45,671 nt of DNA from Candidatus Thermokryptus mobilis (GTDB lineage: Bacteria > Bacteroidota > Ignavibacteria > Kryptoniales > Kryptoniaceae): positions 188,010 to 233,680 of the forward strand of contig NZ_FAOO01000001.1 of the NCBI RefSeq assembly GCF_900070205.1, in the 5' to 3' direction. Made by a program: the position numbers and the translations under genes. Below are positions 25,586 to 26,959 of this stretch, in pieces. The notes under the pieces are model-generated. The model ran no database searches. It was given only the letters and a program-made list of their open reading frames with translations, and had not been told where the DNA came from. Within the stretch, counting starts at the first letter, position 1. Each line of letters opens with the position of its first letter.

Positions 25586-26125
25586 CTACTTACCAGCTGA
25601 CTTTCCTGCCTTCATTCTTATAACTTCGCCCTCGTAGCGAATCCCTTTGCCTTTGTATGGCTCAGGGGGTCTGAAAGAACGAATTTTCGCCGCAACCTGC
25701 CCAACAAGTTGCTTGTCAATACCACTTACAACTATATTCGTCGGCTGCGGAACCTCAACCTTCACACCATCAGGTGGAATAAAAATTATCGGATGGGAAT
25801 AACCCAGATAAAGAACCAACGCCTTCCCTTTCAACTCAGCCCTGTATCCAATGCCGACTATCTCAAGCTTTTTAGTATAACCTTCCGTGACCCCAACAAT
25901 CATATTATTTATCAACGATCTCCACAATCCATGAAGCGCCTTATCAATTCTCGTATCGCTTTTCCTCTTAACCAAAATTTGATCAGAACTAATTTCAACC
26001 TCTATCCTCGGATGAACTTGAGCTGTAAGCTCACCTTTGGGACCTGAAACCTTTATAACGCCATTGCTTTTTTCAACCTTGACACCTTTAGGTATCGGTA
26101 TCGGCTTCCTACCAACTCTTGACAT
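25586..26125 (-). CDS. rplF: 50S ribosomal protein L6
   Basis: A 179-residue L6 made of two related alpha/beta domains near the factor-binding site. Start MSRVGRKPIPIPKGVKVEKS; then KVSGPKGELT, HGLWRSLINNMIVGVTEGYT, KKLEIVGIGYRAELKGKALV and the C-terminal IRSFRPPEPYKGKGIRYEGE. It is complete. Upstream, instead of rpsH directly, is the inserted coiled-coil membrane protein gene, 16 bases away; downstream is a structured 76-base gap before rplR. Confidence 0.98.
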   Translation of the reverse strand: MSRVGRKPIPIPKGVKVEKSNGVIKVSGPKGELTAQVHPRIEVEISSDQILVKRKSDTRIDKALHGLWRSLINNMIVGVTEGYTKKLEIVGIGYRAELKGKALVLYLGYSHPIIFIPPDGVKVEVPQPTNIVVSGIDKQLVGQVAAKIRSFRPPEPYKGKGIRYEGEVIRMKAGKSAGK

Positions 26126-26141: not shown

Positions 26142-26537
26142 TTATTTTAAACCAAAACTTAAGATTTCCCATATCACAGCTACAACTACCGCTGTATATG
26201 CGATTGTTGTCCCGACCATCCGCCTGATTAAACTTACCTTTGAACTTTCTATCCTATCTATCAACCCGTTTCTCAAAGCCTCATTCTCATCTTTCAATCC
26301 ACCCCTTGAAGATTCAATCTCACTTCTCACAAATTCAATTCTTCCTATTAAATCACTCTTTGTCATTTCCATTCTCTCAATCATCTCGCTACGCAAAGTT
26401 CCGATTTTCTCCATCAAATCTGTTTTATCCCTTTCCGTCTTTTCATATAAAATTTCTCTGACATCGCTTATCACTCCATCATATAAACCTTCAAGTCGCG
26501 AGACCCTTTCTGCTAATTCTTCAAGTGTAGTTGACAT
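26142..26537 (-). CDS. Hendecad coiled-coil, tail-anchored membrane protein inserted in the spc operon
   Basis: A 131-residue protein without a ribosomal-protein signature. Residues 4-20 form a short amphipathic helix (TLEELAERVSRLEGLYD). Residues 37-106 are a coiled coil with 11-residue spacing: Leu41/Met52/Leu63/Ile74 and Val70/Leu81/Leu92/Leu103, with repeated endings LRSE, TKSD and VRSE. Residues 108-127 form one membrane helix (MVGTTIAYTAVVVAVIWEIL), followed by a four-residue tail. Similar small coiled-coil plus membrane-helix proteins are frequent in thermophiles, without a known role. It lies between rpsH (26-base gap) and rplF (16-base gap), positions that are adjacent in nearly all bacteria, and shares their strand and base composition. 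GAGA lies upstream of the ATG. The function is unknown; a link to membrane-bound ribosomes is only speculation. Confidence 0.82.
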   Translation of the reverse strand: MSTTLEELAERVSRLEGLYDGVISDVREILYEKTERDKTDLMEKIGTLRSEMIERMEMTKSDLIGRIEFVRSEIESSRGGLKDENEALRNGLIDRIESSKVSLIRRMVGTTIAYTAVVVAVIWEILSFGLK

Positions 26538-26563
26538 TGAAATTTCTCACTTGTTTTTACTTT

Positions 26564-26959
26564 TCACCAAACATAACATATAACTTCTCCGCCGACTCTC
26601 TCCTTCCTCGCACGCCTATCGGTCATAACTCCTTTTGAGGTTGACAGAATAGCAATCCCGAGTCCATTCAAAACCCTCGGAATTTCCTCAACACCAACAT
26701 AAATCCTTCTTCCCGGTTTACTAACGCGGACAAGGTTCGTAATTGCTGGCTCACCGTCCTCTGCGTACTTCAAATAAATCCGCAAAATTCCTTGTTTCCC
26801 ATCTTCAATAACCTCATATCCATTTATAAACTTTTGCTCAAGCAAAATCTGAGCTATCGCTCTCTTAAGCTTTGAAGAAGGGGCTTCAACAACCTTATGT
26901 CTTGCTCTAACAGCATTTCTAATTCTCGTCAGGAAATCCGCAATTGGATCTGTCATCAT
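26564..26959 (-). CDS. rpsH: 30S ribosomal protein S8
   Basis: A 131-residue S8, a primary 16S rRNA binder. [20 protein letters not shown], the linker [20 protein letters not shown], and the C-terminal [40 protein letters not shown] and GGEVICYVW are intact. Two ATG codons stand in tandem at the start; the second (26956) has better spacing from AAGGA and matches the family, so the first Met may not be used. In E. coli S8 represses the spc operon at rplE; no such target was identified here. Confidence 0.98.

Follow-up and report, generated by a model that had tools for sequence, protein, structure and literature searches.

A small coiled-coil gene with a predicted membrane anchor in the rpsH–rplF junction of one Kryptonia species, and its counterparts at other operon junctions

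Few gene neighbourhoods in bacteria are as well conserved as the rpsH–rplF junction. In the window analysed here, a stretch of 45,671 nucleotides from Candidatus Thermokryptus mobilis (Kryptonia genome G000; 2.42 Mb, 97.5% complete, draft), a further gene lies in this junction, which raises the questions of what the gene is, how it arrived there and whether its position ties it to the ribosome. The features of the region are as follows.

26142..26537, minus strand: inserted gene; head (residues 1–29), hendecad stalk (about 30–106) and predicted C-terminal membrane anchor (about 107–131)
26142..26252, minus strand: anchor segment (residues 96–131 and the stop codon), homologous to the korA–korB gene and to planctomycete and Nitrospira members
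26538..26563, minus strand: leader from the rpsH stop to the inserted gene; its sequence TAAAAACAAGTGAGAAA weakly resembles the leader/korA end of the kor locus of the same genome
26126..26141, minus strand: gap from the inserted gene to rplF; together with the last codons of the ORF it matches AAAATAAATT upstream of rplF in insert-free congeners
26564..26959, minus strand: rpsH (S8), upstream neighbour, 94–96% identical in congeners
25586..26125, minus strand: rplF (L6), downstream neighbour, 87–90% identical in congeners

The inserted ORF encodes 131 aa from an ATG start to a TAA stop and is co-directional with the spc operon, at a distance of 26 bp from rpsH and 16 bp from rplF, in agreement with an earlier sequence-only reading that had placed a tightly spaced gene on the same strand between the S8 and L6 genes. 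The 11-residue repeat described there was also recovered: over stalk residues 31–106 the lag-11 identity equals 18 against 5.4 expected (0/10,000 shuffles), and the hydrophobic residues are clustered modulo 11 (9/10,000 shuffles). A test at lag 7 gave no heptad signal in the stalk, and the hydrophobic power of the protein at periods 3.3–4.0 was not significant (361/2000). The regular hydrophobic pattern, previously drawn over residues 37–106, was slightly overstated, as the hendecad register is clean only in residues ~30–73 and 96–106 and is broken at 74–95 (IESSRGGLKDENEALRNGLIDR). The membrane helix proposed for the C-terminus is found there: the most hydrophobic 19-mer of the protein (residues 112–130, KD 2.03) ends one residue from the C-terminus, and this single predicted membrane helix at the extreme C-terminus classes the protein as putatively tail-anchored. 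AlphaFold2 predicts one continuous helix over residues 5–130 with mean pLDDT of 91.6. Searches with the protein gave sub-threshold coiled-coil matches only among NCBIfam families and weak lipoprotein coiled-coil matches only among solved structures.

The codon usage and GC3 of the inserted gene are host-like and close to those of its neighbours, and its adaptation index is somewhat lower (0.63 vs 0.68–0.77 in the neighbours). No terminator-like site was found in the rpsH–insert–rplF region, and the gene is probably co-transcribed with the ribosomal genes.

The junction was then compared among four congeners in which the region is assembled; the incomplete assemblies of two other congeners do not contain it. 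The rpsH–rplF gap is 438 bp in G000 vs 26, 45, 55 and 67 bp in the four congeners, and it ranges from 12 to 120 bp in 24 more distant relatives. Hence the insertion is private to one Kryptonia species among the genomes compared, and because of this there is no conserved link of the inserted gene to S8 or L6. The sequence-only reading had proposed to inspect this junction in relatives and had held that an insertion confined to one assembly would speak against it; an insert unique to one species comes near to that outcome. Uniqueness, the draft state of the genome and runs of N in its other coiled-coil repeat genes might be taken for signs of an assembly or binning artefact. However, the insert is internal to a contig of 233 kb and has no N nearby, the operon continues on both flanks, codon usage is that of the host, and genes of Kryptonia are among the nearest relatives, so that an artefact is scarcely credible.

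Alignment with the congeners sets the right edge of the insert at or inside the stop codon of the ORF, because AAAATAAATT precedes rplF in the congeners too. This placement is compatible with joining at a short shared sequence. The ends of the insert carry no terminal inverted repeats; the nearest copy of the gene in the same genome is only about 40% identical and there are no near-identical copies, and no family match was found in viral contigs. A mobile element was rejected on these grounds.

Since coiled coils align by composition, the head and the anchor were compared apart from the repeats, with shuffle controls. The head is homologous to that of a gene located between korA and korB in Kryptonia and to those of external family members (z 8.0–11.7, with 0/2000 shuffles reaching the score). 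The anchor is homologous to those of the kor-type gene and the planctomycete and Nitrospira members (z 10.8–14.1, or 11–14 rounded; 0/2000 shuffles). The family features are a head of ~30 residues (LEELxxRVSRLE), a stalk that starts with YEKTERDK and continues in 11-residue repeats, and an anchor ending in IWAILSFALK. On these similarities the inserted gene is assigned to the kor-type/planctomycete YEKTERDK coiled-coil family. External members that share this head and this anchor were found in Ca. Kuenenia, Ca. Scalindua and other planctomycetes, a Nitrospira MAG and Thermodesulfovibrionales; they mostly occur once per genome in unrelated surroundings, and the planctomycete hosts include anammox bacteria. 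In 295 other Bacteroidota searched the subfamily was not found.

The closest relatives are the genes of ~100–193 aa between korA and korB, present in 6/6 Kryptonia genomes with the locus. The korA–korB gap is 337–958 bp in Kryptonia vs −23 to 16 bp in 13 outgroup genomes, and G002 (Ca. Chrysopegis kryptomonas JGI-23) carries two coiled-coil genes in tandem at this locus. Substitution rates, e.g. dN 0.054 and dS 0.441 between G001 (Ca. Kryptonium thompsonii JGI-4) and G003, indicate that the kor-type gene is under purifying selection, its position being kept in all six. The placement of homologues, which had been suggested as a check for randomness, is thus of two kinds: scattered single-copy loci in other phyla, and a fixed korA–korB position in Kryptonia.

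The origin of the insert was addressed with a tree of heads and anchors, in which the window gene forms a long branch (0.55–0.78 substitutions per site) that lies between the kor genes and the external members. It is not nested within the kor clade, and AU tests (p 0.05–0.14) leave no placement secure. The leader TAAAAACAAGTGAGAAA matches the genome's own kor locus at 16/17 aligned bases with one gap (30/2000 shuffles, the best of six comparisons). This resemblance is suggestive only and the tree lends no support, and derivation from the genome's own kor copy was not adopted. The gene most likely arose within this lineage, by duplication or by acquisition. The simplest account is that a kor-type gene was duplicated and the copy then changed rapidly; the gene may instead have been acquired separately.

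As dS was saturated or failed for several pairs with paralogues, differences by codon position were used in place of dN/dS. Between the window gene and the kor gene of G005 they equal 0.31/0.34/0.60 at positions 1/2/3. The excess at third positions points to coding constraint over much of the divergence, although part of this path is the kor branch and not the window gene. The earlier statement that coiled-coil regularity proves protein-level selection was too strong, although these differences agree with constraint. Because the branch is so long, the window gene may also have come under relaxed constraint or begun to decay.

Coiled-coil genes occupy other junctions of Kryptonia as well. Their tally, obtained from homology searches, is a lower bound, and the gene names at these junctions were read by eye from translations, not by profile search. 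A gene of another family lies between rplU and rpmA in 6/6 genomes (gaps of 255–1231 bp vs 3–188 bp in 13 outgroups), and in several of them its start overlaps the rplU stop by one base. This second ribosomal junction, taken with the position of the window gene between two ribosomal protein genes, its strand and its anchor, would suit a tether that holds the ribosome, or S8 or L6, to the membrane and is deliberately made together with the spc products. Yet no membrane anchor is present in the rplU-type protein (KD19 maximum 0.59), the rpsH–rplF position is not conserved in any relative, and the homologues occupy metabolic or unrelated loci. We therefore consider such a tether quite improbable. 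The function tied to ribosome synthesis that the sequence-only reading had offered is not supported, given an insertion seen in one species only among the genomes compared and nearest homologues at korA–korB and scattered loci.

The junction of a P5CDH-like gene and sucC holds a coiled-coil gene in G000, G004 and G005 (gaps of 531–749 bp), and none in G001, G002 and G003 (24–61 bp). The gene at this junction is DUF1640-like, an intriguing parallel to Put6/Put7, the yeast DUF1640 proteins required for proline utilisation (PMC7519068). In G000, sucC itself seems to be interrupted by a frameshift, with one TGA inside the match (L003:190-1366, L192), which is either real or an assembly error. Further junctions, each in a single or a few species, are hslU/FemAB-like, acyl-CoA dehydrogenase/guaB, tdh/kbl, atpC/ferredoxin and pdh E1/E2. 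All embedded coiled-coil genes run in the direction of the host operon. The hslU type reaches the PF07798 cut-off, and ATK motifs occur in the guaB and tdh types.

Several observations on these genes may be recorded separately. In G002 tandem duplication is seen alike at korA–korB, acyl-CoA dehydrogenase–guaB and rplU–rpmA. In G000 runs of N lie inside the coiled-coil genes at korA–korB (L002:1498-2427) and rplU–rpmA (L101:1501-2292), probably because internal repeats defeated the assembly. Two contig ends of G000 (C24, C6) each hold part of a DUF1640-like gene whose neighbours appear to be a threonine-dehydrogenase-like gene and kbl. A separate coiled-coil family, with the start KxxKKVTLELxYEVVDERTKSI and QLRQEM/QIAQLNQK repeats, is present at several loci of G001 and G004.

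The presence of a gene at P5CDH–sucC in some species and its absence in others show that genes of this kind are gained or lost. This is in line with the window gene being a neutral passenger, in which case a coiled-coil ORF would have been copied into a junction that tolerates it, would be functionless there and would be heading for decay or spread. Its restriction to one species, its long branch and its lack of positional conservation are in line with this too. On the other hand, the ORF has stayed intact while its protein diverged by more than 50% from the homologues, the head and anchor motifs are retained, and differences are concentrated at third codon positions (0.60 vs 0.31–0.34). We regard neutrality as possible but doubtful. 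Of the two roles offered by the sequence-only reading, the passenger in a strongly expressed place fits the rpsH–rplF site better; it does not extend to the homologues, which are not random mobile passengers: the kor-type gene keeps its korA–korB position in 6/6 genomes with the locus and is under purifying selection.

The number of junctions also permits a Kryptonia-wide scheme. Housekeeping operons would then encode coiled-coil rods drawn from several unrelated families, and each rod would be dedicated to its host operon, whose products it would bind as an adaptor or tether to the membrane; the rpsH–rplF gene would be a new recruit. The occupancy of korA–korB and rplU–rpmA in 6/6 genomes with the loci, in addition to the other junctions, would be expected under it, and so would the common direction of all embedded genes and a window head and anchor that show no relationship to their sucC-, hslU- and pdh-type counterparts. 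Protein length at the kor site, however, varies greatly (about 100–193 aa), and the rpsH–rplF and P5CDH–sucC sites are not conserved. The scheme is unlikely as an explanation of the insert.

We consider it likely that the inserted gene is a lineage-specific copy from a small membrane-anchored coiled-coil family, lodged as a guest in the spc operon of a single species. It would have arrived by gene duplication, probably from a kor-type gene, or by transfer, and would have been joined at a short A+T-rich sequence without a transposon. The protein would be made from the spc transcript, with the ribosomal operon acting as an expression supply only, and would be inserted into the membrane post-translationally with the N-terminus in the cytosol, as RR ahead of the membrane helix suggests. 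The product may be an oligomeric rod on the inner membrane. Its likeliest role would be the generic one of the family, that of a membrane-attached spacer or scaffold with no ribosome-specific part, and we infer that it may function as a tether.

A coding insert at rpsH–rplF shows how far conserved operons tolerate guests. The pattern of occupied junctions across the genus, which sister lineages lack where they were checked, is a more interesting finding than the single insert. It offers a natural system in which recruitment of small structural ORFs as operon-specific adaptors can be set against their mere accumulation at places of high expression. Literature searches found no account of coiled-coil genes in Kryptonia or of such insertions in spc operons.

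Among known systems, CCDC90-like/DUF1640 proteins (PF07798), which include MCUR1, CCDC90B, yeast Put6/Put7 and prokaryotic relatives (PMC7519068), share with the window protein a coiled-coil stalk on a C-terminal membrane anchor, whereas the head differs. Membership in PF07798 was rejected: the protein scores 18.0 bits against the gathering score of 33.5, and its stalk start lacks the beta-layer motif [aliphatic]-A-T-K-[polar]-[DE] found at this place in CCDC90-like proteins (PMC4786415). The P5CDH–sucC, hslU, guaB and tdh–kbl types resemble the window gene in architecture, in their placement at housekeeping junctions and in 11-residue repeats; among the types tested (sucC, hslU and pdh), the shuffle test found no homology to its head or anchor. 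The nearest counterparts are the Kryptonia korA–korB gene and the relatives in Ca. Kuenenia, Ca. Scalindua and the Nitrospira MAG, to which the window protein is 30–47% identical. It has in common with this family the head motif, the YEKTERDK stalk start, the 11-residue repeats and the anchor end IWAILSF. It differs from the kor copies in its genomic site and in a shorter head without the IDKKFxxIDKRL stretch, and from the family in its long branch and in an anchor that carries RR and has lost the conserved W of LIxW.
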